Assembly: GCA_019351895.1 (NCBI GenBank)
Contig: JABBOH010000003.1
Location: forward strand, 124,001-188,000
Direction: 5' to 3'
Length of the DNA stretch: 64,000 nucleotides
Origin: Pseudomonadota bacterium
Lineage (GTDB): Bacteria > Pseudomonadota > Alphaproteobacteria > Acetobacterales > Acetobacteraceae
The notes below the pieces were generated by a model. It had not been told where the DNA came from and did not search any database. It was given only the letters and a program-made list of their open reading frames with translations. Shown one piece after another: positions 45,397 through 63,861 of the stretch (position 1 is its first letter; each line of letters opens with the position of its first letter). The position numbers were made by a program, and so were the translations under genes.

Positions 45397-45473
45397 GCGC
45401 CCTTAGCTCAGCCGGATAGAGCAACCGCCTTCTAAGCGGTAGGTCGGTGGTTCGAGTCCACCAGGGCGCGCCA
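45397..45473 (+). tRNA. tRNA-Arg (anticodon TCT)
   Basis: A 77-base cloverleaf: acceptor GCGCCCT/AGGGCGC, D-arm AGCTCAGCCGGATAGAGC, anticodon stem ACCGC/GCGGT with loop CTTCTAA, T-arm GGTTCGAGTCC, encoded CCA. Its 3' half overlaps, antisense, the last 14 codons of the following minus-strand regulator gene. Confidence 0.95.
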
Positions 45474-46463
45474 AGCTCCCCCGGCATCGTCAGGATCCGG
45501 CAGTGGCGGCGCCGCTGGTTTCGGAATCTCGATCTCCTTGAATGTGACGCGGCTCCCGCTCGTGCTCTCCGCCGTCACCTTCTGCCGGCACCGGAACAGA
45601 TAGCCGTCCCGCCGGCGGTACCACACCGCCCCCTGCCACAGCGGCTGGGACAGCATCTCCTCCCACAGCCGCGCGAAGTCGGCGGTCTCGATGCCTGTCG
45701 GCTTGATCAGGACCGGCGTGTGGCCCAGCGCCTCGTCCGCCTTGAACCGCGTGATCCGCGTGAATGCATCATTCACCCAGAGGATGCGGCTGCCGCGGTC
45801 GACAACCATCTCGGCATGGTGCGCCACTGTCGCAGGCGTCTTGCCGAACCCGTCAGTCAGGCCTTCGTGCGGCGACACCTCGACCATGAACGCAAAGAAC
45901 CCCTCGAGTTGACCGGCGCTGTCGAAATGAGGGGCATAGACCGTGCAATAGGTCGCGACGCCACCACCCGGCAGGGCCACGAGCTGGGAGAAGCTCTGGA
46001 TCTCCCCGCTCAGGACCCCGCGAATGAAGGGCGCAGACCGGTCATAGGCCGGCGCGCCGACGACCTCCCTCATGGTCCTCCCGAGAATGTCATCGGGACG
46101 CTTGCCGAAGGCGCGTTCGTGCAGAGGATTGGCGAAGCGCGCAACAAGATCATTGCCCCAGAAGGACACGAGGCCCGGGTAGATCCGCGCCATCAGATCC
46201 GCGGCACCCTGCGCGTCCTGCGCCGCCACGGCGGTCGCGCGCACGAGAGCCGCCAAGCTGGAGACGCCAAGTTTCGACATGATGGCCGCGCGATGGGCCT
46301 CTACCGTCCGGGCGCTGAGGCCGAGGCCCTGCGCGATGACCTTGTTCGGCTTGCCAGCGACGATCCCGTCCAGAACCTCCCGCTGCCTCGGCGACAAGCG
46401 GCCTCGAAGTGGCTTCGGCTGAGCAACCGGTGGATCGGTTCCCGTTTCGGCATCCTGCGACAA
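45432..46463 (-). CDS. HTH (LuxR-type)-PAS regulator, 3' end inside tRNA-Arg
   Basis: A 343-aa cytoplasmic regulator with the order reversed from most LuxR proteins: the LuxR helix-turn-helix comes first (LSPRQREVLDGIVAGKPNKV, then GLSARTVEAHRAAIMSKLGV, residues 22-80) and two PAS domains follow (about 95-205 and 215-325, the second with AEMVVDRGSRILWVNDAFTR). TTG 46463 with GGGGG 6 nt upstream is used; in-frame starts to 46607 exist. The last residues (RALVDSNHRPTA) are read from the antisense of tRNA-Arg and the stop is in its anticodon loop, so the native C-terminus may have been lost. Likely local regulator of the gene group that follows on the same strand upstream. Confidence 0.8.
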   Translation of the reverse strand: MSQDAETGTDPPVAQPKPLRGRLSPRQREVLDGIVAGKPNKVIAQGLGLSARTVEAHRAAIMSKLGVSSLAALVRATAVAAQDAQGAADLMARIYPGLVSFWGNDLVARFANPLHERAFGKRPDDILGRTMREVVGAPAYDRSAPFIRGVLSGEIQSFSQLVALPGGGVATYCTVYAPHFDSAGQLEGFFAFMVEVSPHEGLTDGFGKTPATVAHHAEMVVDRGSRILWVNDAFTRITRFKADEALGHTPVLIKPTGIETADFARLWEEMLSQPLWQGAVWYRRRDGYLFRCRQKVTAESTSGSRVTFKEIEIPKPAAPPLPDPDDAGGAWRALVDSNHRPTA

Positions 46464-46720: not shown

Positions 46721-48562
46721 TCAGAGTCGTATGGCGCCCGAGGCGATTTTCGACAGGCAATCGCTGTCGCATGGAAGCATGCTCTCGCTCGCGGGATCAT
46801 TGAACCACAGGCTGTCTGGGACGGCAGGCGGAGCCAGCCCCTCGCGGGCAAAGTCTTCGGTTTTGAGTTTGAAGGTGCCCGTCTGCGGGATCGAGCGGCA
46901 CAGGCGGATGAAGAGGGGCCGGGCGAATGCCGGCAATTCCGCCGCGATGTGCGTCTTCAGGACCTGCAGGGACAGCCTCTCATTTCCGACAACCGCGGCC
47001 ATTCCGGCCCGCCCCTCCGCCCCCGGGACCGCAACACCGTAGGCGACAGCGTCGACCACGCCCTCGCATTTCATGATCGCGGCCGCGACCTCCACCGCCG
47101 ATACGTTCTCGCCCTTCCAGCGAAAACTGAAGCCCAGCCTGTCGACGAAGTAGAAATAGCCCAAACGATCCCGGCGCATGAGGTCGCCGGTGCGGAACCA
47201 GATATCACCGCTTGCAAACACATCGTGCAGCCGCTTCCGCCCGCTTGCCGCCGCATCGGTATAGCCGTCGAAGCGTCGCGCCGCGTGCCTGCTGCTCTGG
47301 TCGATACGCCCAATGGCCTCGCCCGTTTCGTCGGCATCGCACGCAATGCAGCGGCCGTCGGCATCGCGCACCGGCAGACCCGTTGTCTCGTCGAGACGGA
47401 TTATCGCCACGGGGAAACGGTGAGCGAGGAAGGGCGGGATCCGGCCGATGGCACCGGGCTTGCCCTCGCAATTATACAGCGAGACGTTACCCTCGGTCGC
47501 CGCATAGTATTCCAGGATTCGCGGTATCTTGAAGCGGGCCTGGAACTCCGTCCAGACCTCGCGGCGCAACCCGTTGCCGCAGCAAAGACGGAGACGATGC
47601 GGCCGGGGCCTATCCTCGTCTCCCGTATGCAGCAGATAGCGGCAAAGCTCTCCGATATACTGGAAGATCGTGCAATCGTTCTCCGTGACGTCGGACCAGA
47701 AACGGCTCGCGGAGAACTGACGCCGGATGACAAGCGATGCCCCCGCCACCAGCATGGCCCCGACCGCGACAACGCCGCCGACGCTGTGATACATGGGCAG
47801 GCAATCGTACAGCCGATCTTCAGGCTGCGCATCCATCATGCCGGCGAACCATCCGCTCCATTCGAGGATGCGCCCATGCGTGACGTAAGCGGCTTTCGGC
47901 AAGCCGGTCGTGCCGGAGGTGAAGATCAGCAAGGCGGCATCGGCGGCGCTGATCCCGGCAGGCCGATGCTGCTCCTCGTGGCGCGTTCCGTGCCGATCGT
48001 GACCGCGCGCGCGACGGAGATGGAGCGACCCGTCATGCGTCCAGAGGTCAGCCGCAACGGAATGTGCGTCAAGCGCCTCAGACACTCGACCGTACCATGC
48101 ATCGTCAACGATCACATGGCTGCAGCGGGCCGCTTGGACGCAATGGGCAAGACCGGCGCCGACGAGGTTGGTGTTGATCAGGGCCACGACGCAGCCGATA
48201 TGCGTCAGTCCCAGCCAGATCGCGACGTAGTCCACGCAGTTCGGCATGATGAGGCAGACGACGGACCCATGACCAAGGTCCTCGCTCAAGGCCCAATCCG
48301 CGTACACCGTTGCTCGCGCTACAACCTCGCCGTAGGTGAGCTGCGCTCTCTCGTCGACCAGCGCGAGGGCGTCGCGCCGCCCGGCGGCCTGCCTCTCGAC
48401 GATCGAGAGCAGCGTGGCCGCCTCGTCCTGCTCAAGCGACTGGCTCCACTGCAGCGCCCGAAGCCAGTGCTGCAGTGGCTTCTCCTGGACCGGGCGGGTT
48501 GAGGACCCGCCCGTTCCGCCCACGCTCGCGCTACCTCCGCCGGAAGCGAGGGTAAGGTCCAT
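46721..48562 (-). CDS. FATP/ACSVL-type acyl-CoA synthetase
   Basis: AMP-forming ligase, 613 aa, activating long or very long fatty acids. The ATP motif is IFTSGTTGLPKAAYVTH, the A5 region EYYAATEGN, A7 TGDLMRRDRLGYFYF and A8 DRLGFSFRWKGENVSAVEV. The C-terminal TGTFKLKT is the FATP-type Lys motif. The first 30 residues are Gly/Ser-rich and extra. It lies 25 bases after the HDO gene, so it is probably the last gene of the metabolic operon. It could supply acyl-CoA to an unknown acceptor made by the upstream enzymes. Confidence 0.88.
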   Translation of the reverse strand: MDLTLASGGGSASVGGTGGSSTRPVQEKPLQHWLRALQWSQSLEQDEAATLLSIVERQAAGRRDALALVDERAQLTYGEVVARATVYADWALSEDLGHGSVVCLIMPNCVDYVAIWLGLTHIGCVVALINTNLVGAGLAHCVQAARCSHVIVDDAWYGRVSEALDAHSVAADLWTHDGSLHLRRARGHDRHGTRHEEQHRPAGISAADAALLIFTSGTTGLPKAAYVTHGRILEWSGWFAGMMDAQPEDRLYDCLPMYHSVGGVVAVGAMLVAGASLVIRRQFSASRFWSDVTENDCTIFQYIGELCRYLLHTGDEDRPRPHRLRLCCGNGLRREVWTEFQARFKIPRILEYYAATEGNVSLYNCEGKPGAIGRIPPFLAHRFPVAIIRLDETTGLPVRDADGRCIACDADETGEAIGRIDQSSRHAARRFDGYTDAAASGRKRLHDVFASGDIWFRTGDLMRRDRLGYFYFVDRLGFSFRWKGENVSAVEVAAAIMKCEGVVDAVAYGVAVPGAEGRAGMAAVVGNERLSLQVLKTHIAAELPAFARPLFIRLCRSIPQTGTFKLKTEDFAREGLAPPAVPDSLWFNDPASESMLPCDSDCLSKIASGAIRL

Positions 48563-49285: not shown

Positions 49286-50749
49286 TTACCCTTCTTCTGT
49301 CCGCGTTCCTTGGCCGTAGCCCGGCTTTCGGACGTTGTTCAGGAGATCGACAAGCATCCGGACATCATCGGCCGTTGTCTGACCATTGACCGGACAAATT
49401 CTGAGGGCATCTTGTCCCTTGAACCGTGTGCACGAGACCCAGGCCTGGCCCGAGTCCAAAACCCCCCGCGCGATATCTCCGACGGCGCGCGAACCTTCCG
49501 GCGGCACGGCGCACACAACCGCCAGCCGCGACTCGTTTACGATCGTCCAGCCTGCCGCCCGAAGGCGCTCCGCGACGAGATCGGCCAGGCCCACGCTGCG
49601 CTCGACATGTTCGCCGTAGCCTTGCCAGCCGACGGCGGCGAGCGCAAGGAACAGCCGAAGCCCGATGAAGCGCCGCGACCATTGAACGGTCATCATGTAC
49701 GGGTCGACCGCGTGATCCGACGACGGCATGAAATAGCCATCAATATGGAATGCGTCCCGTAAAGGTCCGCTGAGCCGCGTGAGAAACAGCGAGCAGGCCA
49801 TCGTCGTCGCGAGCCACTTGTGGGCGTCGATCGTGATGGAATGCGCGCGTTCGATCCCAGCCAGCAGCCCGCGCATCGTCTCGGAGACGACAGCCGCGCC
49901 GCCCCAGGCTCCGTCCACGTGGTACCAGAGCCCATGACGCTCGGCGATGTCCGCGCAAGCGTGCAGCGGGTCGATCATTCCGGCGCCTGTGGTCCCCGCC
50001 GTGGCGGACACCATCACCGGTACCAGCCCCTGCTGCCGGTCGCTCTCTATCATATCGGCGAGCGCCGCAACGTCCATCCGTCCGTGCGCGTCCGTCGCCA
50101 CCGCCCGCACGCCTGCATGCCCGACACCGCTCTGGACGGCGATCTTGTACCAGGCGACGTGCGCGTCCTCGGACACATAGAACACCGGCGGCCCCGCGAA
50201 GGCGCCGATGCCCCTGTTGACGAAGTCCCGGTTGGCGTAGCTCAACGCCGAGATGAGCGCGGTGAAGTTCGCTTCCGAACCGCCCGTCGCGAAATGTCCG
50301 CCGGCAGTATCCGGGAAGCCGACGCGTTCCGCGAATGCCTGGATGACGTGGCGCTCGATCGCGACGGCGGCAGGCGATGTCGTCGCCGTTGCGAGCTGCG
50401 GATTGAACGCTGCCACGATCCGATCCGCGAGTTCGGCGGGCAGTGTCGGCGCGGGATTGAAGAGGCCGAAATAGCGCGGATGCGTGATCTGTACCAGCCC
50501 CTGCTTCAACTGGTCGATCACGAAGCCGATGGCGTCCGCGAGAGGCCTCGGCTGCTGGAAATCGAACGGCGCCAGACGTGAGCGCAGTATTTCGACGCCG
50601 ACAACGGGGGTCACGCGCCCCTCCGCCACCGACGCGCGCGCGGCGAGCAGAGCGTCCGTCACCGCATGCTCCCAAACCGCGCGCTCTTCCGGCGAGCAGA
50701 AAAGGCCGGGCATCGACGAGGCCAGGTCGTCGGGCGCGGGCGGGCGCAT
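49286..50749 (-). CDS. PLP-dependent group II decarboxylase
   Basis: Aromatic-amino-acid/glutamate-type decarboxylase fold, 487 aa. PLP residues in this numbering: H197 in SEDAHVAWYK stacks the ring, D279 in YHVDGAWGG binds the pyridine nitrogen, and K311 in TIDAHKW forms the Schiff base. ATG 50749 has AGGA 7 nt upstream; GTG 50773 is in frame and would overlap the previous stop. Substrate class (aromatic, acidic or diamino acid) is not deducible. It is coupled to the MetA-like gene (17-base gap), implying decarboxylation of an amino acid made by the MetY/MetA pair or of its acceptor. Confidence 0.9.
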   Translation of the reverse strand: MRPPAPDDLASSMPGLFCSPEERAVWEHAVTDALLAARASVAEGRVTPVVGVEILRSRLAPFDFQQPRPLADAIGFVIDQLKQGLVQITHPRYFGLFNPAPTLPAELADRIVAAFNPQLATATTSPAAVAIERHVIQAFAERVGFPDTAGGHFATGGSEANFTALISALSYANRDFVNRGIGAFAGPPVFYVSEDAHVAWYKIAVQSGVGHAGVRAVATDAHGRMDVAALADMIESDRQQGLVPVMVSATAGTTGAGMIDPLHACADIAERHGLWYHVDGAWGGAAVVSETMRGLLAGIERAHSITIDAHKWLATTMACSLFLTRLSGPLRDAFHIDGYFMPSSDHAVDPYMMTVQWSRRFIGLRLFLALAAVGWQGYGEHVERSVGLADLVAERLRAAGWTIVNESRLAVVCAVPPEGSRAVGDIARGVLDSGQAWVSCTRFKGQDALRICPVNGQTTADDVRMLVDLLNNVRKPGYGQGTRTEEG

Positions 50750-50766
50750 GTGGAAGTCCTGTTCCG

Positions 50767-51669
50767 TCAGCACGGCACGAAATCCGAGAGACCTCGCAAC
50801 TCGGGAGAGGTGGCGCCGAGCGCCGGGGCCCGGCGCAGACCGAGGCTTTTCCGCTCGGCCAGTTCACGGAACCAATTGCGGTAGAGTGTCACGGCCGCGG
50901 GGCGCCAGGACGCGTCGCCGACATAATGGCAGGGCGGCAACGGCGGCGTTGCGCGCTCTCCCATGTCGAAGCGCTTGAGGTCGCGCTGGAACTCGCGCTG
51001 CAGGGTATCGGCGTCGTATTCCGGATGGCTCTGCAGGAAGAGCGCGGGCGCCGCGCCACGCCTCTCGAACAGATCGACCCCGACCTCCTCCGACCAGACG
51101 AGGATGCTGTAGCCGTGCATCTGCAATACGTCCTCCGGAAGCGTGTTGTGACGCGAGTGCGGCATCATCCATGTGCCGCCGATATCCGCCATGACGGGAT
51201 GACGCCGTGCCAGGATTTCGCCCGCGAATATTCCCGAGACCTTCTGCTCGAGCTTCACCCGCTCGATGCCATGCAGATGCAGCACCGCGGCGTGGGCCGC
51301 CAGGCACGACCAGATCGCCGGGGTTGCCGTATCCTCCGCCCAGTCGACAAGACGCCCGACAAGCGGCCGGACAGGATCGTCCGCGAGTCGCGCCGTCCGC
51401 GGTTCGGCGCCGGTGACGATGATGCCGTCGGCATCGGCATCGAACAGGGCATCGACATCCTCCTCCTCCACGGCGCTGCCGCGGGAATGCTCGCGATAGA
51501 ATTTCACGATCACGTCATGCTCGGTGGCGCCTGCACCAAGCAGGTTCCTGAATTGCCGCACCGTCGCGCGGCGCGCCGCCTCGGGCATATTGTTCACAAC
51601 CGCGATTGTCAGGCTCTGGCGTGGCGCGGGAGCGCGGCCCGACGCCGGAACGGCCACCGCCGCGTTCAT
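50767..51669 (-). CDS. MetA-type homoserine O-acyltransferase-like protein
   Basis: Glutamine-amidotransferase-fold acyltransferase of 300 aa, related to homoserine O-succinyl/acetyltransferase MetA. The catalytic residues align: C122 in IWSCLAAHAAVLHLHGI, H215 and E217 in QSHPEYDADTLQREF. VVNNMPEAARRAT and MPHSRHNTLP are the equivalents of VNLMP and PHSRH. The sequence is distant from canonical MetA (SCLAAH instead of CWGAQ), so the substrate may differ. ATG 51669 overlaps the MetY-type stop (ATGA). It would make O-acyl-homoserine for the neighbouring sulfhydrylase. Confidence 0.82.
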   Translation of the reverse strand: MNAAVAVPASGRAPAPRQSLTIAVVNNMPEAARRATVRQFRNLLGAGATEHDVIVKFYREHSRGSAVEEEDVDALFDADADGIIVTGAEPRTARLADDPVRPLVGRLVDWAEDTATPAIWSCLAAHAAVLHLHGIERVKLEQKVSGIFAGEILARRHPVMADIGGTWMMPHSRHNTLPEDVLQMHGYSILVWSEEVGVDLFERRGAAPALFLQSHPEYDADTLQREFQRDLKRFDMGERATPPLPPCHYVGDASWRPAAVTLYRNWFRELAERKSLGLRRAPALGATSPELRGLSDFVPC

Positions 51670-53000
51670 GCTCGCACCCGCGCCGGTTGCTCGTGGCCGA
51701 GGCTGGGCTGCCTCCGTGCGCGCTGCCCGGTCGCTGCCGTCAGCGCCTGATCCAGATCGTCCAGAATGTCGTCGACATGCTCGATTCCGATGCTGAGACG
51801 TATGGTCGCGGGCGTGACGCCCGCCTTCAGCTGATCGTCGGCCGGCATCTGCCGATGCGTGGTCGACGCCGGATGGCAAGCCAGCGACTTCGCATCCCCC
51901 AGATTGACCACCCGCTTGACGAGCTTCAGGGCATCGTAGAAGCGGATCCCGCCGCCATAGCCGCCCTGTACGCCGAAGGTGAGGAGCGAGCAGGCGGAGC
52001 CTCCGAGATACTTCCGGACGCGCTCGTAGTAGGGGCTCGAAGGGAAGCCAGCGTAGTTCAGCCATTCGACGCGCGAATCGTCACGCAGGAACTGTGCGAC
52101 CTTGGCGGCATTCTCCACATGCCGCTCGACGCGAACGGCGACCGTCTCGATGCCCTGGAGGAGAAGAAAGGCGCTCATCGGCGCAAGAACCGCGCCAAGC
52201 GTACGCAGGAACACGCTGCGGCAGCGGGCGATGTAGGCCGCGCGGCCGAAATGCTCCGCATAGATCATGCCGTGATAGGAGGCGTCGGGCTTGTTGAACA
52301 TCGGGTAGCGGTTGGCGTGCTTTTCCCAAGGAAACCGCCCGGCGTCGATGACGATGCCGCCGAGGGTCGTGCCGTGGCCGCCAAGAAACTTGGTCATCGA
52401 GTGGATCACGATATCGGCACCGTGCTCGATCGGTCGGCACAGAACCGGCGTCGCGACGGTGTTATCGACGACGAGCGGCATGCCGTGGCGATGCGCGACC
52501 TGCGCCAATCCCGCAATGTCGGCGACGTTTCCCGCGGGATTTCCGACACTTTCGCAAAAGATCAACCGGGTGTCTTCATCGATCAGGGCTGCGATGTCGT
52601 GCGGGCTGTCGCTTTCGGCCAGGCGCACGCCGACGCCCATGCTCGCCAGATGATGCGAGAACAGGGTGTGCGTGGTGCCATAAAGCTGCGGCACCGAGAC
52701 GATGTTGCGCCCGGACTCGACGAGATTGGCCACGGCGCAATGGAGCGCCGCCTGTCCCGAGGCAACGGCCATTGCCTCGATGCCGCCTTCCATGGCCGCC
52801 ACGCGCTTTTCCAGAACCGCGTTCGTCGGATTGCTGATCCGGCTGTAGCGGTAGCCTTCGGCCTCCAGGTTGAAGAGCGCGGCGGCATGATCGGCCGAAT
52901 CGAACTCATAGGACGCCGTCTGATAGATCGGCACGGCAACGGCCCGCGTGGCGGTATCGCCATCGAAGCCCGCATGCAAAGCGAGCGTTTCACGCCGCAT
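51666..53000 (-). CDS. O-acetylhomoserine sulfhydrylase-type enzyme (MetY/Cys-Met metabolism PLP family)
   Basis: PLP-dependent gamma-replacement enzyme, 444 aa from ATG 53000 (TTG 53054 is an upstream alternative). Signature segments: VPIYQTASYEFDSADHAAAL, YSRISNPTNAVLEKRVA, and the Schiff-base Lys in VIHSMTKFLGGHGTTLGG. It replaces the acyl-oxygen of O-acylhomoserine with sulfide, or with another nucleophile in specialised relatives such as the C-terminal domain of rhizobitoxine synthase RtxA. The last 22 residues (RARRQPSLGHEQ...) are an unusual basic tail. ATGA overlap with the MetA-like gene. Either methionine synthesis or a specialised amino acid pathway. Confidence 0.9.
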   Translation of the reverse strand: MRRETLALHAGFDGDTATRAVAVPIYQTASYEFDSADHAAALFNLEAEGYRYSRISNPTNAVLEKRVAAMEGGIEAMAVASGQAALHCAVANLVESGRNIVSVPQLYGTTHTLFSHHLASMGVGVRLAESDSPHDIAALIDEDTRLIFCESVGNPAGNVADIAGLAQVAHRHGMPLVVDNTVATPVLCRPIEHGADIVIHSMTKFLGGHGTTLGGIVIDAGRFPWEKHANRYPMFNKPDASYHGMIYAEHFGRAAYIARCRSVFLRTLGAVLAPMSAFLLLQGIETVAVRVERHVENAAKVAQFLRDDSRVEWLNYAGFPSSPYYERVRKYLGGSACSLLTFGVQGGYGGGIRFYDALKLVKRVVNLGDAKSLACHPASTTHRQMPADDQLKAGVTPATIRLSIGIEHVDDILDDLDQALTAATGQRARRQPSLGHEQPARVRA

Positions 53001-53264
53001 GGCTGTGGCATCCCGGCCGTCGGTTCCGAAGGTCGTGACCGGAAGATGATCCAAACATCATCGATCCTTTGTCGTTTATAGCTTTAAGGAGATGGAGCGG
53101 GCGGAGCTTGCGCCAAGGCTTCTACGCAATCTTGTAGCGGGAACCGGCACGGGCGCTCTATACCAAAAAGAGAGGATGCGGACACTCCCACGAGGCAGAA
53201 GCTAAACCTCGTTGCACCTTCACAATCCGATGCAAAAGCGATTGATGCTTAGTCCCTCTGCCGA
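53001..53264 (-). other. Intergenic region upstream of the MetY-MetA-decarboxylase operon
   Basis: This 264-base gap separates two minus-strand gene sets and probably holds the promoter of the metY-type operon. On the minus strand a 6-bp hairpin (ACGAGG/CCTCGT, 53188-53212) and a small CTAC/GTAG hairpin are seen. I find no SAM-II, SAM-V or SAH riboswitch wording. The GTGATTTG and GCTAAA elements of SAM-II are missing. Confidence 0.4.
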
Positions 53265-53999
53265 TCACGCCGTGTTTCCGGCGTCGACCGTCATGACAGT
53301 CCCCGTGATGTTGCGTCCCTTGTCGCTCATCAAGAAGTCGACAGCATCGGCGATATCCTTGATGTCGACGAGCCTGCGAAGCGCGCTGCGACGCTCGATC
53401 CGCGAGCGGTCCTGTTCGCTCATGCCATCCGTCATATCGGTCGCGATGAATCCGGGGGCGACCGCATTGACGGTGATACCGGCGGCTCCGACTTCCCGGG
53501 CCAAGGATCGCGTGAAACCGTTCAGGGCCGCCTTGCTCGCGCTATAGGCCGACAGGCCGCTGTAGCCCGTCATGCTCACGATCGAGGAGATGTTGACGAT
53601 CCGCCCCTGCCCCTGCGTCAGCATGGAGCGCAACACGTGCTTCGTGAGCAGAATGGGAGCGGTGACGTTGAGAGCGATGAGCTTGGCGACCTCATCATCC
53701 TTGATCTGGCTCGCGAGGCCGTGGGTGCCGATGCCGGCATTGTTGACGAGACCATAAATCGGCCCGACCTCTCCCCGTATCGCCTTGACGAGTGGGCCCA
53801 GACCCGCCGAATCGGCGAGGTCGCAGCAATGAAACCGCACCGCGCCGCGCCCTTCCGCGGCGGCCCGATCGATCGCCTCCGACAGCTCAGCTGTCTGCCG
53901 TCGCGCGACCGCGTGAACGCTGAAACCGGAAGAGGCGAGACCTAGGCTGATGCCGAGGCCGAGGCCGCGGCTACCGCCGGTTACGATAACGTTACGCAT
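53265..53999 (-). CDS. SDR-family reductase, FabG-like
   Basis: NAD(P)H-dependent short-chain dehydrogenase, 244 aa. Cofactor motif TGGSRGLGLGISLG, NNAGIGTHG, catalytic Ser in VNISSIVSMTGYSGL and YSASK (YxxxK), then the C-terminal GNITGTVMTVDAGNT-type end (ITGTVMTVDAG). It resembles 3-oxoacyl-ACP reductases and would suit reduction of a carrier-bound keto intermediate. Its start overlaps the ligase gene by 8 bases. Last gene of the hydrolase-ACP-ligase-SDR unit. Confidence 0.9.
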   Translation of the reverse strand: MRNVIVTGGSRGLGLGISLGLASSGFSVHAVARRQTAELSEAIDRAAAEGRGAVRFHCCDLADSAGLGPLVKAIRGEVGPIYGLVNNAGIGTHGLASQIKDDEVAKLIALNVTAPILLTKHVLRSMLTQGQGRIVNISSIVSMTGYSGLSAYSASKAALNGFTRSLAREVGAAGITVNAVAPGFIATDMTDGMSEQDRSRIERRSALRRLVDIKDIADAVDFLMSDKGRNITGTVMTVDAGNTA

Positions 54000-55380
54000 G
54001 TTGCCTCAGCAGTTTGCCGGATGGTGCGACAGGTAACGAACGGACCACTCGAAACGATGCAGGAACTTCATGCCGCGCAAGCTCGTTCTGGCACAGGGCC
54101 AGAAGTTCCGCCTTGGCCCGGACGGCGTCATCCTCGCGAGGTCCGAGAACCACGTCGGCGACCACAATCGCGCCCGTGATGGGGTTGGCCCGCGCCGAGA
54201 CCCGTGACACCGATACAGCCGGATGGCGATTGATCACGGCCTCGACCCGCTCGGGATGCACCTTGAGACCACCCACGTTGATGATGTCATGGCGTCGGCC
54301 AACAAAGATGTAGCGGTCGCCACGCTTCTCGACGACGTCGCCGGTGTCGATGAAGCCGTCCCTCCCAGGAAGCGCCGGAGCTTCCGCTCCGACATAGCGC
54401 GCCGCCGTTCGGGGGGAACGGATGCGAAGCGTGCCGCCCTCCACTGCCAAAGATACGCGCCCGGCCGACGACAGGAGCGACGCCGGGAACCCCGCCTTGC
54501 CGTCCCTCACATCGAAGGCGACGCCCGCCTCGGTGGAGGCGAAGGCATGCGCGACCTCCGCTTCTGGAAAAGCCGCCTGCAACGCATCCAGAATGGCTTG
54601 ATCCGCAGCCTCCCCGGAGAGCCTGACGTAGCGCGGCGACATTGAGCCGGCATGTCCGCTCATCAGAGCACGACGCCAATGGGATGGCGTGCCGGAGATA
54701 TGCGTCACCCCGGCCTCGCCGACGCGCCTCAGGAACGCGCTCACGCCTTCGGCGGTATCGGAGAGCACCATCGAACCCGTGCCGGCGAGCGCCCGCAGCA
54801 ACACCTGGAGGCCACCGTAGCGCCGCACGTCATAGAAGGTGCTCCAGACCGGTGGGGCCTCGCCCGCACCCACGCCGTCGGCGACAGCGCCGGTCAAGGT
54901 CATCAGGCTGTGCTGCACGAGCTTCGGCCGGCCGGTGGTGCCGGAGGTGAAGAGCAACCACTCCGTCTCGACCAGCTCCGCGGCTGGCTCGACCTCATGT
55001 TCGAGCTGCATTCCGCATCGCACGACCGCCACCGCGCCCCCCAGATCCGGGATGTCGCGCAGGCCGTCGGTCACGATGCAATCCACTTCGGCGTCGGCCG
55101 AGGCATCGCGAAGATGCGGGACGGAAACATCCGGCGGGCAGATGGTCACGCGCCTCACCACCCCGTCGAGATGCGCGAGCGCCAGCACCGTCGGGAGTTG
55201 ATCAGTCGTCGCGAGCAACACACTCCGTCCACGCAGGTTCGTGACGGGCCCTGAGAGGTTGGTCTTCTCACCGAGGTCGCGGAGCGCGATCCGCTGTCCC
55301 GCATCCGAGATGACGCTGTCGGGACCGCGGTCGCGGGGCCCGATGATCTCGATGAGCGTCCGGAAATCAGACGTCGGCAT
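53992..55380 (-). CDS. AMP-forming acyl/amino-acid ligase, short variant
   Basis: ANL-superfamily adenylating enzyme of 462 aa, shorter than the usual 500-550 aa because the N-terminal subdomain is reduced. Core motifs remain: LLFTSGTTGRPKLVQHS (A3), HAFASTEAGVAF (A5), GFIDTGDVVEKRGDRYIFVG (A7), RRHDIINVGGLKVHPERVE (A8) and the catalytic Lys in PSGKLL. It overlaps the carrier-protein gene by 14 bases and the SDR by 8, so it very likely charges that carrier. The ligase known beside exosortase A is a comparable partner. Substrate unknown. Confidence 0.88.
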   Translation of the reverse strand: MPTSDFRTLIEIIGPRDRGPDSVISDAGQRIALRDLGEKTNLSGPVTNLRGRSVLLATTDQLPTVLALAHLDGVVRRVTICPPDVSVPHLRDASADAEVDCIVTDGLRDIPDLGGAVAVVRCGMQLEHEVEPAAELVETEWLLFTSGTTGRPKLVQHSLMTLTGAVADGVGAGEAPPVWSTFYDVRRYGGLQVLLRALAGTGSMVLSDTAEGVSAFLRRVGEAGVTHISGTPSHWRRALMSGHAGSMSPRYVRLSGEAADQAILDALQAAFPEAEVAHAFASTEAGVAFDVRDGKAGFPASLLSSAGRVSLAVEGGTLRIRSPRTAARYVGAEAPALPGRDGFIDTGDVVEKRGDRYIFVGRRHDIINVGGLKVHPERVEAVINRHPAVSVSRVSARANPITGAIVVADVVLGPREDDAVRAKAELLALCQNELARHEVPASFRVVRSLPVAPSGKLLRQHA

Positions 55381-55624
55381 CGGCCGCCGCGGCCTCATAG
55401 ACGGCGATGAACTCGCCGACCGTCGAGGGGAAATGCGTATTTGTCTCGCTCGAAAGCGGATCCAGCCCAAGCTCGTCATCCAGGCTCGCAACGAGGATCG
55501 CGAGACAGAGCGAATCGAGACCGGTCTCGAGCAACGGCGTTTCATCCGTCAGCGGCGCCAGACGCTTGCTCTGCTGCTTCGCAACCCGCTGCATCTGCGC
55601 AATGACTTCGTCTCTTATGGACAT
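55367..55624 (-). CDS. Acyl carrier protein 1
   Basis: An 85-aa acidic carrier protein with the phosphopantetheine site at S38 (ETGLDSLCLAILV). The helix-II sequence and the D-S-L motif are canonical. Its ATG directly follows the hydrolase stop (TAGATG) with GAGGGG 9 nt upstream, and its end overlaps the ligase gene. Distinct from housekeeping AcpP, which is usually next to fabF; it serves this gene group. Confidence 0.92.
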   Translation of the reverse strand: MSIRDEVIAQMQRVAKQQSKRLAPLTDETPLLETGLDSLCLAILVASLDDELGLDPLSSETNTHFPSTVGEFIAVYEAAAADADV

Positions 55625-57286
55625 CTATAAGGCCCCCTCGGTGGCGAGATTCCTATGAAGCCGGGCATCCGGCACCTTTGCCGTGTCCCCTCTGAAGTTC
55701 GGTCGATCGGCCAGTGCAGTCGGGGTGGGTACCGCTGCAAGGAAATCGGCGATCCGATCGGCTACGCGCCGCCGCATCTCGGGGCGCGTGAGGTCATGAT
55801 CGATGTCCGGCATGATCGCGCATTCGATCCCTGCATATGCCGCGAGATCCTTGCCCGACGAACCGAAGTTCTGCTCGAGCGACACGAGGCCGCCGTCGCC
55901 GTCCGCGAAGATGAAGCCGCATCGGACACCGCGCGCCGACAATGTCTCCATGGACCGCCGGGCGAAGCTTGCCGGCCCGGCCTTCTCATAGCGGATCGTG
56001 AACAATGGAAGGTTGACGCAAAGCAGCGCGGCCACGCGTGCATCCGCGGCGGCCGACTGCAGCGCGTGATAGGCGCCCGAGCAGAGGCCGTGCAAAGCGA
56101 TCGATCGAAACCCGAGGCTTTCGGCAAGGTCGATGGCGGCCGCGAAATCGGCCCGCCGGTCGATCATGAAGGTGTGCGTCACGGCATTGGCATCGTATGA
56201 GGCGTCAATACTGTCTCCGAGCCCCGCGAAGTCCATTCGCAGAGATGCGATCCCATGCCGCGCGAGGTGTCGCGCCAACTCCACGCCGAAGCGTGCGAAT
56301 CCCTCATGGGGGTCGCCGCCGGTATTGCCGAATATGAGGATGCGGTTGCAAAGCCCAACCGCCGGCTCGCATAGCATGCCGAAAAGGTTGCCTGCCGGGC
56401 CGAACATCCGGGCCGTCTCCCGCCAGCCCGGGCCAGCGAGATCGAAGCGATGACGTGGGACAGGTTCGGGCACAGGCAACGGCCGCGCCGGGCAGGTCTC
56501 GCTTAGCCAGCCGACGACTGGACAAAGGTTCGGAAACGGCTCGTCCGCCAGATGCGTCGGACGCAAAAAGGCGAGCGCGCTTTCGTCGACGAGCTGCGTC
56601 ACCTTGGCCCCCTGGCGTTGCCATGCGGATTGGGCTTGGCGCATCGGCTCGGAATGCTGCGTGGTCAACACAAGGATCTGCCGGTTTGCGTCAGAGTCCA
56701 CAGTCAGAAGGTCCAGCAGGGCGATGTGCGCCAGCTCCTCGGGAGGAAGCTGGAGGCCGTGCACCCGTACCGCGCCCTCGGCGTCCGCTTCCGACTTCGT
56801 CGCCAGCCGTTCCTCCATACGGAGTTGCGTCGCGAACGATCTTCCGCGGACAACGGGCTCGATCAGGATGAGCGCGGCAACCGCGTCCTGCTCTGCCGCC
56901 ACCATGGCCGCCAGGGTGGCGCCGAGCCTTAGCCCTGCAAGCACGACCCGGCGAGCACCGTCAAGAGCGAGAGCGGCGTCGATCGCGTCATGCACGTTCT
57001 GCTGCCAAGCGGCCAATGTCGCATCGCCGTCACAGGAATCGCCCGTGCCGCGGTAGTTGAAGCGAAGCGTGCGATAACCGGCGAGCGCGAGTTGGTCCGC
57101 AAGGAAGCGCAGCGGCCGATGGCCGGTGCTTCCGTCGCGGCCGATGCCGGGGCACATGACGACCACCGCGTCAGAAACCGTGCCCGACACAGGAACGTGA
57201 AGCTGCGCGAAGCAGCCCTGAAACGTGGTGGGCCGCAGCTGCACTTCAGGGTGATGCTTTGCCAACGGCTCAGACACGAAGATCAC
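55625..57286 (-). CDS. Fused double alpha/beta hydrolase (exosortase A-associated hydrolase 2 + 1 type)
   Basis: A 553-aa protein made of two alpha/beta-hydrolase domains. Domain 1 (1-255) has FNYRGTGDS and, at the nucleophile elbow, G118-L-R-L-G122, where Arg replaces the nucleophile. Domain 2 (280-553) has MDFAGLGDS and G400-L-C402-S-G404, where Cys is the nucleophile, with D462/D464 and H497 as likely triad partners. The GLRLGA and GLCxGA elbows are features I recall of the two hydrolases next to exosortase A, normally separate genes. Start GTG 57286 lacks a clear ribosome site. Coupled to ACP 1, so a carrier-bound thioester is the likely substrate. Confidence 0.8.
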   Translation of the reverse strand: MIFVSEPLAKHHPEVQLRPTTFQGCFAQLHVPVSGTVSDAVVVMCPGIGRDGSTGHRPLRFLADQLALAGYRTLRFNYRGTGDSCDGDATLAAWQQNVHDAIDAALALDGARRVVLAGLRLGATLAAMVAAEQDAVAALILIEPVVRGRSFATQLRMEERLATKSEADAEGAVRVHGLQLPPEELAHIALLDLLTVDSDANRQILVLTTQHSEPMRQAQSAWQRQGAKVTQLVDESALAFLRPTHLADEPFPNLCPVVGWLSETCPARPLPVPEPVPRHRFDLAGPGWRETARMFGPAGNLFGMLCEPAVGLCNRILIFGNTGGDPHEGFARFGVELARHLARHGIASLRMDFAGLGDSIDASYDANAVTHTFMIDRRADFAAAIDLAESLGFRSIALHGLCSGAYHALQSAAADARVAALLCVNLPLFTIRYEKAGPASFARRSMETLSARGVRCGFIFADGDGGLVSLEQNFGSSGKDLAAYAGIECAIMPDIDHDLTRPEMRRRVADRIADFLAAVPTPTALADRPNFRGDTAKVPDARLHRNLATEGAL

Positions 57287-57506: not shown

Positions 57507-58688
57507 TCAGCGCGTCGCGACCTGAGCCGCGGTCGTCGGTTTGGAAAGATCGGTATCGAGCCATCCCGCGAGAATATGCGTGAACCGAGAAGCGCCGCTC
57601 GCGTTCAAGTGGAACTGATCACCAAAGAACCGGTCGTGCCAGCATGGCATCGTAGGCCCGAGGAGCCGCGCATCGGGGTCGGACGCCACGGTTTTCCGCA
57701 GATAGCTGAGGAAGCCCGTGCGCAGGCCTGGGTTCATCTGCCGGCAAGTAGCGTCGTTGATCGGTAGCGATACCAGATAGACCGGCACATTGCGCCGCGC
57801 CAGTTCCAACAGCATGTCCTTGAAATAAGTGTCGATGACCGGGGACAACCGGAACCGAGGGATTTCCGCTTCGGCCGCGATCCCGGATGAACCATCAGCC
57901 GTGCCGAAGAAGGCCTGTCCACGATCCTTCAGGATCGCGTGTTCGGCATCGCGGTTGTGAAGATAGCGGCCGAAAACATAGCCGTTGACGATGCTGTCGA
58001 AGTAGATTGTCGGGAACCGCAGGGCATACATCGCTTCCCTGACGATCGGCATGACATTTGCGGCCGGCGGCAGACGGTCGATCTCGCGGTCGTCGAGATG
58101 ACGGCTCGTCGCCCGCACCGACTGCATATCCGCGAAATTCAGCAGACCGATCCGCGTGCTGATATTCCAGTAATCGTCATCAGTCACATACTTGCCGGAG
58201 CTGTATGCGATCACAACCGCCTTCGGCAGCGTCTTGCACCGGAGCGCGCGGCCGAGCGCGAAGTATGCCTCGATCGGGCTACTTCCGGAGAAGGCGAAGT
58301 TGGTGGCGCGGAAGGGAAGCGCCAGGGGCTCGACGCCGGCCATCGCGCGGCTGTCCCCGAAGACCGCAAGCGAGCCGAGGTCGCAACTGGCCAGCATGTG
58401 ACGCTTGGCGATCCAGGCCGGATAGTCGCGCGTCAGAAACGCCATGGGCAGGGTGGCGGTATAGAGCCAGACGAGCCCGAAGATCAGCACGAATGCCGTC
58501 AGGCACAGGCGCAGGAACCGCCGCGCCCGCGCTTCACGGATCGCCTCGGGGGAAGCCACAGCCGTAGCGCGCTCTGTGGCGTCAGCCGCAGCCGTGGAGG
58601 GGCGCAGGTCATGAGGCCGACCACCGCCGCTGGCGATGGCGCCGGTGGTCCCTGCTTGCGGCGCCAGCCTAGGCGGTCCTGGCAGCAT
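57507..58688 (-). CDS. Membrane-anchored SGNH/DltD/AlgJ-like protein
   Basis: A 393-aa protein with a 58-residue cytosolic low-complexity tail, one transmembrane helix (60-82) and a periplasmic SGNH-fold domain. The block I motif is F-G111-D112-S113-R and the block V D357-x-x-H360 in GDQFHLNASG, giving a Ser-Asp-His triad. Such proteins accept acyl groups exported by an MBOAT partner (AlgI/AlgJ/AlgX, PatA/PatB, DltB/DltD) and place them on a periplasmic polymer. It follows the MBOAT gene by 35 bases. Confidence 0.85.
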   Translation of the reverse strand: MLPGPPRLAPQAGTTGAIASGGGRPHDLRPSTAAADATERATAVASPEAIREARARRFLRLCLTAFVLIFGLVWLYTATLPMAFLTRDYPAWIAKRHMLASCDLGSLAVFGDSRAMAGVEPLALPFRATNFAFSGSSPIEAYFALGRALRCKTLPKAVVIAYSSGKYVTDDDYWNISTRIGLLNFADMQSVRATSRHLDDREIDRLPPAANVMPIVREAMYALRFPTIYFDSIVNGYVFGRYLHNRDAEHAILKDRGQAFFGTADGSSGIAAEAEIPRFRLSPVIDTYFKDMLLELARRNVPVYLVSLPINDATCRQMNPGLRTGFLSYLRKTVASDPDARLLGPTMPCWHDRFFGDQFHLNASGASRFTHILAGWLDTDLSKPTTAAQVATR

Positions 58689-58723: not shown

Positions 58724-60337
58724 TTAAAACTGGAAGTACAGGAACTCCGACGTGCCCCCGACAGCCAGCACGCCGAGCGTCAGCACGGCGCCAATGGTGG
58801 CCGCCCAGCCGACGCTCGGCTGCCAGGACACCCATGGCAGCGGACCCGGCTGGATGCGCCCCAGAACCGGCTCGAAGCCACGCATGATCTGCTGCGTGTT
58901 GGGGCAGAACCAGACGATCACATAAAGCAGCGCCACCCACAGCACCGTGTTCATGCCGTCGATGAACCTTACCGCCCGCACCGGCTGCAGCACCCCTTGC
59001 GCCAGAAGCGCATGCCCGATGGCGCCGAGGCGCGTCACCACGCCGGAGGGAACGAAGATACTGCCGAAGCCGTGCAGGCCGATCATGCCGCGCAGCATGT
59101 CGGTCGCCGCTCCGAGGGAGTGGGAGCGGAAAAACACCAGGGCGACCAGGGTTGCGAGAAACGTCAGCGCTACCTTCAGCACATGCTGGACCCGCCCCTC
59201 CGCCGCCGTCAGGACGCGGTGAGGCCGGAAGATCCGAAAGGCGTGATTGATGCTGAGGTAAATCCCATGGATCACCCCGAAGGCAAGATACTGTAGCCCG
59301 GCCCCATGCCACATTCCCGCGAGCGCCATCGTGAACAGGGTCGGAAACATGACCATCGTCGCGAAGCCAGCGGGGCTCGCATGGCCCGCGCGGCCGATCG
59401 CGAGGTTACGGGCGGCGCGCCGCCGCGTGATGGCAAGAGCCATCGGGTTGTAGATGTAAAGCGCCAGATACCGCGACAAGGTGATGTGCCAACGTTGCCA
59501 CAACTCAATGATCGAGGCGGCCTTGTAGGGGGAGTTGAAGTTCACCGGGAAGCGGATGTTGAACATGCGTGCGACGCCGATCGCCATGTCCGTGTAGCCC
59601 GAGAAGTCGAAGTAGATCTGCAACGCGTAGCTCAGCACGGCAAGCCACGCGGTATCGAGAGGCACGGAGCCCGCGGTGCCAAAGCCCGCTCTGACGGACG
59701 GGATCATCGTGTCGGCGAACAGCGTCTTCTTGACGAGCCCGAACGCGAAGATCGCGAGCCCTACGGAAAGGTTCTCCGCCGAGAAGCGATATGTCTTGGG
59801 CTCCGCGAACTGCGGCATGATCTCGCGGTGATGCAGGATCGGTCCCGCGATCAGATGCGGGAAGAACGAGACGAACAGCACGTAGTGGACGAAGCCACGC
59901 TCGGTGATCAGACCTGCCTTCTTGTCCACCAGGAAGCCGATCTGGGTGAAGGTGAAGAACGAGATGCCGAGCGGCAGGACGATGTCGGGCACCGTGCCAT
60001 GAAGCACCCCGCAGCCCGTCAGGAAGTGGAGCATTGTCTCCAGATATTTGAAGTAGACCAGCAGCCCGACATTGGCCGTGACGACAAGCGCCAGCAGCGC
60101 GGTCTGGCGCCGAGGAAACGACGCGAGCCGGTCGAGGCCGAGCGAGGCGAGGTAGTTGGAGCCGATCGACGCCATGAAGAGCAGCAGGAACGGCGGGTTC
60201 CACCAGCCATAGAAGACGAAGGAGATCCCGATGAGCCAGAGCTTGGAGGCAGCCGGCAGGACCGACGTCACCAGATAGAACCCGCCGAGAACGATCGGCA
60301 GGAACAGGAACAGGAAAACGTATGAGTTGAAGAGCAC
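58724..60337 (-). CDS. MBOAT family O-acyltransferase (AlgI/DltB-like)
   Basis: Polytopic membrane acyltransferase, 537 aa, about eleven helices. Family landmarks are GISFVFYGWWNPPFLLLF, PLGISFFTFTQIGFLVD, YFDFSGYTDMAIGVARMFNI, ELWQRWHITLSRYL and the catalytic His in MALAGMWHGAGLQYL. GTG 60337 with AGGGC upstream. It moves acyl groups across the inner membrane from a thioester donor. The carrier-protein gene 20 bases upstream makes an ACP thioester the likely donor, as for DltB, whose donor is D-alanyl-DltC. Confidence 0.92.
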   Translation of the reverse strand: MLFNSYVFLFLFLPIVLGGFYLVTSVLPAASKLWLIGISFVFYGWWNPPFLLLFMASIGSNYLASLGLDRLASFPRRQTALLALVVTANVGLLVYFKYLETMLHFLTGCGVLHGTVPDIVLPLGISFFTFTQIGFLVDKKAGLITERGFVHYVLFVSFFPHLIAGPILHHREIMPQFAEPKTYRFSAENLSVGLAIFAFGLVKKTLFADTMIPSVRAGFGTAGSVPLDTAWLAVLSYALQIYFDFSGYTDMAIGVARMFNIRFPVNFNSPYKAASIIELWQRWHITLSRYLALYIYNPMALAITRRRAARNLAIGRAGHASPAGFATMVMFPTLFTMALAGMWHGAGLQYLAFGVIHGIYLSINHAFRIFRPHRVLTAAEGRVQHVLKVALTFLATLVALVFFRSHSLGAATDMLRGMIGLHGFGSIFVPSGVVTRLGAIGHALLAQGVLQPVRAVRFIDGMNTVLWVALLYVIVWFCPNTQQIMRGFEPVLGRIQPGPLPWVSWQPSVGWAATIGAVLTLGVLAVGGTSEFLYFQF

Positions 60338-60357: not shown

Positions 60358-60612
60358 TCAGCCGGTGAGCGCGGGCAGGCGCTGCTCGATCAGCGCCGTC
60401 AACTCCTTGATCGTCTTCAACTGCTCCATCTCGGCGGACTTCACCTTGATGCCGAACCGATGCTCGATTTCAACCGCGAGCGTCACCTGCGACATGGAAT
60501 CCCATTGCGGGATCATGTCCGACGTCGTCTCCGGCGTCAGGACAAGGTCCGGCGCCTCGAAGATGTCCCTGAAGATTTCCGTCAGGCGGGGGAGAACGTC
60601 GTCTCGCGTCAT
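60358..60612 (-). CDS. Acyl carrier protein 2, paired with the MBOAT
   Basis: An 84-aa carrier protein with the phosphopantetheine site S39 in PQWDSMSQVTLAV; the W-D-S-M wording resembles DltC and other dedicated carriers more than AcpP. ATG 60612 lies after GAGGAATGGTGAG. It heads the ACP-MBOAT-SGNH operon. The charging ligase may be the one at 53992 or lie elsewhere. Confidence 0.92.
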   Translation of the reverse strand: MTRDDVLPRLTEIFRDIFEAPDLVLTPETTSDMIPQWDSMSQVTLAVEIEHRFGIKVKSAEMEQLKTIKELTALIEQRLPALTG

Positions 60613-60799
60613 GGTCTCACCATTCCTCGCGGGTTGGCGGCGCGCCGCTCCATAGCCAGCGGCGATATTGCCGTCTGGCCATAGATCTGCGGGCTGCGCA
60701 ACTTCGCCATATGGCGGAACCACCATCAGGTCAAAGCGCTGAGCTTTATGAGTAGAGGGAAAATGGCAAAGATTGGGCGCGAAAAAGGCGACTTCGCGT

Positions 60800-61826: not shown

Positions 61827-61865
61827 CTTGGGTATCCTCCTTGTCGAAGCTGTTATGCGAACCGC

Positions 61866-62882: not shown

Positions 62883-62940
62883 GCGCGCGCCCGGCGCCTC
62901 GTGCCAAGGCCCGCCATAGGCAGGACGAACGTCCCGGATG

Positions 62941-63681: not shown

Positions 63682-63832
63682 CGTGCGGCCACCGCAGCGC
63701 GAGCGCGAACAGGTCCCGCGCTCGTGGATGCGGAACAGCGGGCCGGAGGATGGGCGAAATACGGCACAGGACGTTTCCCTCGGGCTTGTCCAGTCACCGG
63801 ACAGCCTCCCTTTGTTCGGACATTTGCCAAAG

Positions 63833-63861
63833 CCTGTACCCCACACGCCAGCCAGCCTCAA
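63833..63861 (-). promoter_or_regulatory. Candidate promoter of the sugar ABC operon
   Basis: On the minus strand TTGAGG (63861-63856), a 17-base spacer and TACAGG (63838-63833) resemble a sigma-70 promoter about 150 bases before the ATPase start. Judged by eye only. Confidence 0.35.

Follow-up and report, generated by a model that had tools for sequence, protein, structure and literature searches.

The window analysed here, a stretch of 64,000 nucleotides from an Acetobacteraceae genome (contig JABBOH010000003.1, positions 124,001 to 188,000), carries on its minus strand, at 53265-57286, a four-gene cassette for a protein of two fused alpha/beta-hydrolase domains (dHyd), an acyl carrier protein (ACP2), an AMP-forming ligase and a short-chain dehydrogenase/reductase (SDR). 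The cassette is a real, conserved and exosortase-independent relative of the hydrolase pair of the exosortase-A side genes, together with a carrier protein. Its most likely role, which we regard as somewhat probable, is in an acyl- or aminoacyl-ACP transfer pathway that is independent of exosortase and serves a small molecule or a surface decoration.

All four genes of the cassette are present as first predicted, and they run from 57286 to 53265 in the order dHyd, ACP2, ligase and SDR. They are tightly packed: dHyd and ACP2 abut, ACP2 and the ligase gene overlap by 14 bp, and the ligase and SDR genes overlap by 8 bp. The open reading frame of the ligase extends to 55545 (517 aa), with an extra N-terminus that overlies the ACP gene, and the 462 aa form was taken. 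Both of the elbows named in the original prediction are found in dHyd, GLRLGA at residues 118-123 and GLCSGA at residues 400-405. Beyond a 210 bp gap the same-strand run, longer than the original prediction had it, continues to 46721 with genes for an O-acetylhomoserine sulfhydrylase (OAHSH), a MetA-like acyltransferase, a pyridoxal phosphate (PLP) decarboxylase, a heme-oxygenase-like protein and an acyl-CoA ligase; the decarboxylase, expected further down, is the third gene after the SDR. On the other side, 220 bp upstream of dHyd and on the same strand, are genes for an SGNH-like membrane protein, an MBOAT acyltransferase and a further carrier protein (ACP1).

Relationship of dHyd to the exosortase-A hydrolases

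The first domain of dHyd (D1, approximately residues 16-268) contains the GLRLG elbow, with Arg120 at the place of the nucleophile, and the second (D2, approximately residues 286-521) contains the GLCSG elbow with Cys402, a conserved Asp496-His497 and a mostly conserved Asp464. When the window protein and 73 relatives were compared, the Cys of D2 was found in 73 of the 74 sequences; at the D1 position 55 have Arg, 18 have Gly and one has a gap, and Ser or Cys never occurs. The Arg or Gly at the first elbow rules out a fusion of two working enzymes. D1 is without a nucleophile yet persists whether the two hydrolases are fused or separate, and so it probably has a binding role. In the structure model of dHyd (mean pLDDT 82.1) both domains match many alpha/beta hydrolases.

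The whole protein scored 87.9 bits against the hydrolase 1 model TIGR03100 (cut-off 168.45) and 86.2 bits against the hydrolase 2 model TIGR03101 (cut-off 202.75). When it was split in two, the best of 18,950 models was TIGR03101 for D1 and TIGR03100 for D2 (scores in Table 1). Alignments by hhalign paired D1 with hydrolase 2 (E 6e-20, 209 columns) and D2 with hydrolase 1 (E 1e-28, 265 columns, full length), while the crossed pairs were weaker (6e-16 over 123 columns and 3e-9 over 109), D1 against D2 gave 3e-15, and three single control hydrolases gave E-values of 2e-5 to 0.6; these values derive from small alignments and single-sequence controls, and serve for ranking.

The reference hydrolases came from a TIGR03100 search of 120 genomes of the phylum, which returned five matches, four of them over the cut-off. 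These four loci were used, and were picked by TIGR03100 score, not by exosortase. The fifth match (G529, under the cut-off) is itself a dHyd, in a locus with a ligase resembling aminoacyl-tRNA synthetases (aaRS-like ligase). Read by eye, the elbows of the four hydrolase 1 members are GECDSA, GLCDGA, GNCDAA and GNCDAA, with Cys in all four; those of the gene preceding each member are AVRHGA, GLRSGT, AMRGGA and SFRSGA, with Arg in all four, although two of these preceding genes count as hydrolase 2 by position only. The order of an Arg elbow followed by a Cys elbow is common to the window dHyd and the hydrolase 2/hydrolase 1 pair. In three of the four loci hydrolase 2 has a neighbouring ACP with a DSM site; in the other (G739) none was seen within 2 kb before hydrolase 2. 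Companion genes of the TIGR03100 loci include ligases scoring 657 and 713 bits on TIGR03098 (G261 and G668) and a decarboxylase scoring 526 bits on TIGR03099 (G261).

On TIGR03101, hydrolase 2 scored 274 bits in G739 and G668 and 44 bits in G261, and gave no match at 1e-8 in G393. The two low-scoring genes at the hydrolase 2 position, L157 8985-9686 (44 bits) and L158 10267-10953 (no match at 1e-8), are far under the TIGR03101 cut-off, so this model may miss diverged members of the family.

Judged by sequence, dHyd is a diverged, fused counterpart of hydrolase 2 and hydrolase 1, and its two halves are remote homologues of the exosortase-A pair. The original prediction had likened the whole cassette to the exosortase-A side genes, and the likeness holds for the homology of the hydrolases, their order and their elbow residues. 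It does not extend to the ligase and decarboxylase, which belong to other families. The three models that had been named as its check (TIGR03098, TIGR03100 and TIGR03101) all scored far under their cut-offs, which tells against the prediction by its own terms and rules out true membership of the exosortase-A set. The ligase, run as the 517 aa reading frame, reached 65.3 of 592.35 bits on TIGR03098, its twelfth-ranked model; its nearest NCBIfam model is TIGR01923 menE (98 of 330 bits), and models of MenE and FadD type come ahead of TIGR03098. The decarboxylase is of PF00282 group II, and TIGR03099 is absent from its model matches, so that its parallel with the usual exosortase-set partner is one of role only.

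Exosortase and sorting signals

No match to the exosortase models TIGR02602 and PF09721, nor to the PEP-CTERM model PF07589, was found by profile search of the genome that carries the window (97.9% complete). The absence noted at first for the window extends, by these models, to the whole genome, and a nearby exosortase locus is ruled out. The same Pfam models were positive in two genomes of the same family, G179 and G235, with one exosortase each and 10 and 5 PEP-CTERM matches, respectively. Among 33 dHyd- or ligase-bearing genomes, chosen from those in hand, 29 were without an exosortase match, which supports the stand-alone role that had been suggested. In the pieces taken from the exosortase loci of G235, G179 and G493, no gene matched D1, D2 or the ligase.

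To our knowledge, the hydrolases, ligase and ACP of the exosortase-A set have been described only through their association with exosortase. The main text of the 2006 PEP-CTERM paper (PMC1569441) makes no mention of a hydrolase, ligase, acyl carrier, decarboxylase or pyridoxal. Searches of one open-access library on exosortase hydrolases with a carrier, hydr1/TIGR03100, carrier-protein ligases, and flagellin and exopolysaccharide acyl-ACP cassettes brought up nothing on the present system.

Genomic context of dHyd relatives

With each species represented by one genome, a scan located 521 stretches that contain dHyd relatives; the counts given here are for the best 80 of these 521. Gene calling recovered dHyd in 73 of these 80 loci; the codon-based caller misses genes in lower-GC contigs, and tblastn served as a check. 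A carrier, ligase or associated gene lies within 9 kb of dHyd in 64 of the 80 loci, or 36 of 43 after thinning to representatives, against none of 12 comparison stretches without dHyd (9 to 18 kb, a convenience choice and not random). Within the same distance were found the aaRS-like carrier-protein ligase (31 loci), an acyl-CoA dehydrogenase (34), a GH2 protein (35) and DUF1839 (32). Other types of AMP ligase occur in 18 loci, and the ligase type of the window in two (L021 and L026).

Around the 43 representative loci there are 161 neighbouring genes, 103 of them unlabelled; 57 of these were scanned against Pfam and 46, mostly short, were left out. The commonest families among the 57 are polysaccharide flippases (7) and glycosyltransferases. 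SGNH-like genes, recognised by eye, adjoin dHyd in L020, L022, L024 and L027.

At L008 10408-13719 (Rhizobium sp. NLR16a) the annotation gives dHyd as a single long protein, the N-terminal part of which reads by eye as a multi-pass polysaccharide flippase. Such a fusion would directly link dHyd to polysaccharide export.

The ACP-ligase-SDR cassette

The ligase of the window is rare, occurring in 8 of a sample of 385 genomes of the class, its own included. Ten ligase loci were examined (the window, L021, L013/L026, L100 and L109-L114), and in all ten, distant genomes included, an ACP precedes the ligase and an SDR directly follows it. An order that recurs in distant genomes is not due to chance. 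An acyl-CoA ligase is nearby in the seven closest loci, and is not in the three more distant ones (L112-L114). Related ACP-ligase-SDR sets occur in pseudaminic-acid/flagellin islands of Azospirillum, and in Rhodobacterales, where genes for glycosyltransferases and acyltransferases adjoin them.

A GNAT-like protein of 280-320 aa, so labelled by eye and without a Pfam match in the three members that were scanned, is encoded in five of the ten ligase genomes (G606, G493, G318, G388 and G434). Its gene adjoins the cassette in four of the five; in G606 it is found away from it. The genes lying beside ACP-ligase-SDR sets without dHyd are at L100 8156-9064, L110 4928-5899, L111 8366-9220 and L112 11945-12781. 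A search for dHyd in nine further genomes, of which seven carry the ligase and two carry just the MetA type, gave no match, and the GNAT-like protein was not found in the four dHyd genomes G000 (that of the window), G179, G224 and G630; the 13 genomes of this comparison were chosen among those in hand. Of the ten ligase genomes, three have dHyd (G000, G224 and G630), five have the GNAT-like protein, two have neither, and none has both. This either-or pattern suggests that dHyd and the GNAT-like protein may replace each other as interchangeable delivery enzymes.

Wider gene cluster

The genes of the cassette and its surroundings are listed in Table 1. A LuxR/PAS gene just downstream of the cluster is a possible regulator. 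Genes of a sugar-type ABC importer (binding protein, permease and ATPase, recognised by eye) occupy 60873-63861, just upstream of the MBOAT module.

Table 1. Genes of the dHyd cassette, the adjoining cluster and the upstream MBOAT module, with the main evidence for each assignment
Feature	Position in window	Strand	Evidence
LuxR-type helix-turn-helix (N-terminal) and PAS regulator	45432..46397	-	PF00196, PF08448
FATP/FadD6-type acyl-CoA synthetase	46721..48562	-	NF006134 673.9 (cut-off 625)
Heme-oxygenase-fold, diiron-oxygenase-like protein, 213 aa	48588..49229	-	Predicted fold; no Pfam match
PLP group II decarboxylase (diaminobutyrate/aspartate/aromatic type)	49286..50773	-	PF00282 211.8 bits; NF052646 172/900; PDB neighbours
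MetA-like homoserine O-acyltransferase	50767..51669	-	PF04204 159 bits; NF003776 261.8/358; 4 bp overlap with OAHSH
O-acetylhomoserine sulfhydrylase type (MetY/OAHSH), PLP	51666..53054	-	TIGR01326 593.5 (cut-off 495.1)
SDR, 3-oxoacyl-ACP-reductase-like	53265..53999	-	NF009466 219/222 bits; PF00106
AMP-forming ligase (ANL family), 462 aa	53992..about 55380	-	PF00501 and PF13193 above gathering
ACP2, carrier protein, GLDSL attachment site, 85 aa	55367..55624	-	PF00550 20.5 bits, just below gathering score 20.8
dHyd, two alpha/beta-hydrolase domains, 553 aa	55625..57286	-	Best NCBIfam: D1 TIGR03101 70 bits, D2 TIGR03100 48.4 bits
SGNH-hydrolase-like, membrane-anchored, DltD/AlgJ-like by motif	57507..58688	-	GDS and DQFHLN motifs read by eye; no Pfam/NCBIfam match
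MBOAT O-acyltransferase, DltB/AlgI-like	58724..60337	-	PF03062 69.5 bits; TIGR04091 158/375
ACP1, carrier of MBOAT module	60358..60726	-	PF00550 32.4 bits; start uncertain, 60612 or 60726

The MetA-like subfamily is found in 7 of the 385 genomes and adjoins OAHSH in all seven. It co-occurs with the ligase subfamily in five genomes, each of a different family, where 0.15 would be expected, and in four against 0.11 expected when the genome of the window is left out (p 6e-7), figures that carry no correction for shared ancestry. The wider cluster recurs in G493, of another alphaproteobacterial family, where OAHSH, MetA, decarboxylase, acyl-CoA ligase, SDR, ligase, ACP and the oxygenase-like protein are encoded in that order within 10 kb, without dHyd. 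G388 has ACP-ligase-SDR, an aaRS-like ligase, acyl-CoA dehydrogenase, carrier, acyl-CoA ligase, OAHSH and MetA within about 10 kb. In G318 the MetA-OAHSH pair has an aaRS-like ligase and acyl-CoA dehydrogenase as neighbours, and in G566 a carrier-thioesterase and an AMP ligase. The pair lies away from the ligase in G606 and G318, and no carrier or ligase was seen beside the pair in G606 and G486. The genome of the window has further OAHSH-type and MetX-type genes elsewhere (the MetX-type under its curated cut-off), and for this reason the OAHSH/MetA pair of the cluster looks dedicated to it.

Two carrier-charging systems (AMP ligase with SDR, and aaRS-like ligase with acyl-CoA dehydrogenase) are found together with OAHSH and MetA at L111 9319-19555, a stretch that is a possible key to the pathway. 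The second OAHSH-type gene of the window's own genome (G000:C84:46434-47729) has one in-frame TAA in the aligned stretch, and is either a pseudogene or carries a sequence error.

The diiron-oxygenase-like protein

The heme-oxygenase-like protein was found only in G493 and the genome of the window among the 385 genomes; a plasmid search gave no match, and a sequence search of the PDB gave weak, unrelated matches only. Its structure model (pLDDT 81.7, built from two sequences) has the heme-oxygenase-like fold. It matched HamA with Z 14.0 (3.9 A, 190 aligned), HrmI with 13.9 (3.3 A, 195) and PolF with 13.6 (3.5 A, 200), the values for these and CADD spanning 12.7-14.0, a range that helical models can reach by arrangement, without true kinship. 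Foldseek alone was weak, with a best E-value of 3.5e-3 (CADD) and none at 0.001. Residues E67, H88, E136, H168, D172 and H179 are identical in the two sequences, and are putative metal ligands by analogy with the family, not by a reading of the model. The protein is a probable new diiron-oxygenase-like one. The HamA literature, in the parts accessible, offered nothing transferable to it.

Proposed pathway and alternatives

From the gene content, homology, elbow residues, linkage and the lack of an exosortase match, we infer a route in which all the reactions, transfer by dHyd and the nature of the product are proposals. The AMP ligase would load a small organic acid or an amino acid onto ACP2, and the SDR would adjust the bound group. 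Cys402 of D2 would then take over the acyl group and hand it to an acceptor or release it, with D1, lacking a nucleophile, probably helping to dock the carrier or substrate. OAHSH, the MetA-like enzyme, the decarboxylase, the oxygenase-like protein and the acyl-CoA ligase would form a dedicated supply or tailoring line, most likely for an amino acid derived from O-acylhomoserine. Transport of the acyl group to the cell surface may fall to the upstream SGNH-like protein, ACP1 and MBOAT, the last of which is linked to the cassette by position only. As to the end point, the neighbouring MBOAT and SGNH genes speak for the surface, and the amino-acid enzymes for a metabolite.

Several observations weigh against this pathway. 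No partner was detected in 16 of the 80 dHyd loci, some of which are at contig ends. OAHSH, the MetA-like enzyme, the decarboxylase and the oxygenase-like protein each occur near dHyd in none of the 80, so that the combination of dHyd with OAHSH is seen in the window only, and the nearest counterparts of the wider cluster have no dHyd. Its absence from G493 and G388 means that the chemistry which these genomes share does not depend on it there. In G179, dHyd is near an acyl-CoA ligase, but no ACP2-ligase-SDR set was found in about 36 kb. The two halves of the minus-strand run are parted by the 210 bp gap, the co-occurrence figures are not corrected for shared ancestry, and an MBOAT is near dHyd in just 2 of the 80 loci.

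The alternative that survives best, possible but doubtful in our estimate, is acylation of a surface glycan: dHyd, ACP2, the ligase and the SDR would supply an unusual acyl or aminoacyl group, which the MBOAT, SGNH-like protein and ACP1 would attach to an exported polysaccharide in the manner of the Dlt and Alg systems. These three genes lie directly upstream on the same strand, dHyd has polysaccharide flippases, glycosyltransferases and, by eye, SGNH-like genes (L020, L022, L024 and L027) as neighbours elsewhere, and ACP-ligase-SDR sets stand in the Azospirillum pseudaminic-acid/flagellin island and by the Rhodobacterales glycosyltransferase and acyltransferase genes. For DUF1839 proteins, frequent partners of dHyd, a 2023 paper proposes a role in glycan processing at the cell wall on the basis of genomic context (PMC10318531). 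Against such a role, the MBOAT linkage is confined to the two loci just mentioned, SGNH motifs were detected in none of the 80 loci by a pattern scan, and Pfam GDSL lipases are 3 of the 57 scanned neighbours. The two modules are parted by a 220 bp gap with a weak promoter-like site, from a scan that performed at chance level (2 found, 2.3 expected). There is no glycosyltransferase within the cassette, and OAHSH, MetA, the decarboxylase and the oxygenase-like protein would go unexplained.

It is unlikely that dHyd is instead a housekeeping thioesterase that clears mis-charged carriers as a form of proofreading. The alpha/beta-hydrolase fold, the conserved Cys, Asp and His, and the presence of dHyd with several different ligases and carriers would all suit such an enzyme, but the either-or pattern of dHyd and the GNAT-like protein is more in keeping with alternative means of delivery than with editing, and a retained twin domain without a nucleophile would be unexpected in an editor.

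That the cassette is a chance meeting of four ordinary genes of fatty-acid or methionine metabolism is improbable: each protein does come from a common superfamily, but distant families preserve both the order and the linkage of the genes, and the genome has further genes of OAHSH type and of MetX type elsewhere, those of MetX type being under the curated cut-off. Least probable of all is a degraded remnant or relocated copy of the exosortase-A side genes whose exosortase was lost, since the homology of D1 and D2 with hydrolases 2 and 1 is set against 521 stretches with relatives, 29 of 33 genomes without an exosortase match, a ligase and decarboxylase of other families, and key residues that are conserved, not decaying.

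The transfer pathway independent of exosortase remains the preferred reading. The presence of a fused hydrolase pair in a carrier gene set without exosortase suggests that such hydrolases move small acyl groups and do not sort proteins. A broader proposal, offered tentatively and rated somewhat below an even chance, is that Arg-/Cys-elbow pairs form a general class of carrier-dependent acyl or aminoacyl transferases, serving at least three charging systems (the exosortase-A AMP ligase, the aaRS-like ligase, and the AMP ligase with SDR); the exosortase-A side genes would be one branch of it, engaged in glycan or metabolite acylation and having nothing directly to do with protein sorting. The fused pair, with the same odd elbows, occurs with a carrier and ligase in a genome without detectable exosortase or sorting signals, and for this reason the role of the exosortase-A side genes becomes testable apart from sorting. 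The dHyd family also ties the exosortase-A hydrolases to the amino acid:[carrier protein] ligases, and the window flags an uncharacterised biosynthetic cluster.

Comparison with known systems

The oxygenase-like protein shares with the heme-oxygenase-like diiron oxygenases (HamA, HrmI, PolF and CADD) its predicted fold, at Z about 13-14, and plausibly a pattern of six metal-binding residues, but differs in having 8-17% identity to them and no Pfam match.

As in the Dlt and Alg acylation systems (DltABCD, AlgI/J/X), an MBOAT, a carrier and an SGNH-like membrane protein occur together, with a separate ligase nearby. The MBOAT (PF03062) and the carrier are both present among the Dlt-type parts, the DltB model TIGR04091 stays below its cut-off (158 of 375), and the DltD-like protein is so recognised only by a motif read by eye. 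The window differs in its extra dHyd/SDR cassette and in a linkage that is not conserved.

The surface-glycan islands of Azospirillum and Rhodobacterales have a homologous ligase with an ACP before it and an SDR after it. The partner differs, being either a single-domain hydrolase accompanied by a ketoacyl-ACP synthase III or a protein annotated as an acyltransferase, and no dHyd is annotated in the stretches seen.

Loci of amino acid:[carrier protein] ligases likewise combine a dHyd of the same family with a carrier protein and the enzyme that charges it, but in them this enzyme is a class II aaRS-like ligase, the redox partner is an acyl-CoA dehydrogenase, and DUF1839 and GH2 accompany the ACP and dHyd. 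Single proteins of L015 (aaRS-like ligase, acyl-CoA dehydrogenase, DUF1839 and GH2) gave no match in the 64 kb window at E 1e-3, a search of limited sensitivity in which the ACP query missed ACP2. Carrier-protein ligases are treated in PMC9437257.

Compared with the exosortase-A set (TIGR03100/03101/03098/03099), the cassette differs in that its hydrolases are fused and under the cut-offs, the ligase and decarboxylase are of other families, an SDR is included, and the genome is without an exosortase or PEP-CTERM match. The two have in common hydrolase 2 followed by hydrolase 1, an Arg elbow followed by a Cys elbow, an adjoining ACP (three of four reference loci) and an AMP ligase.

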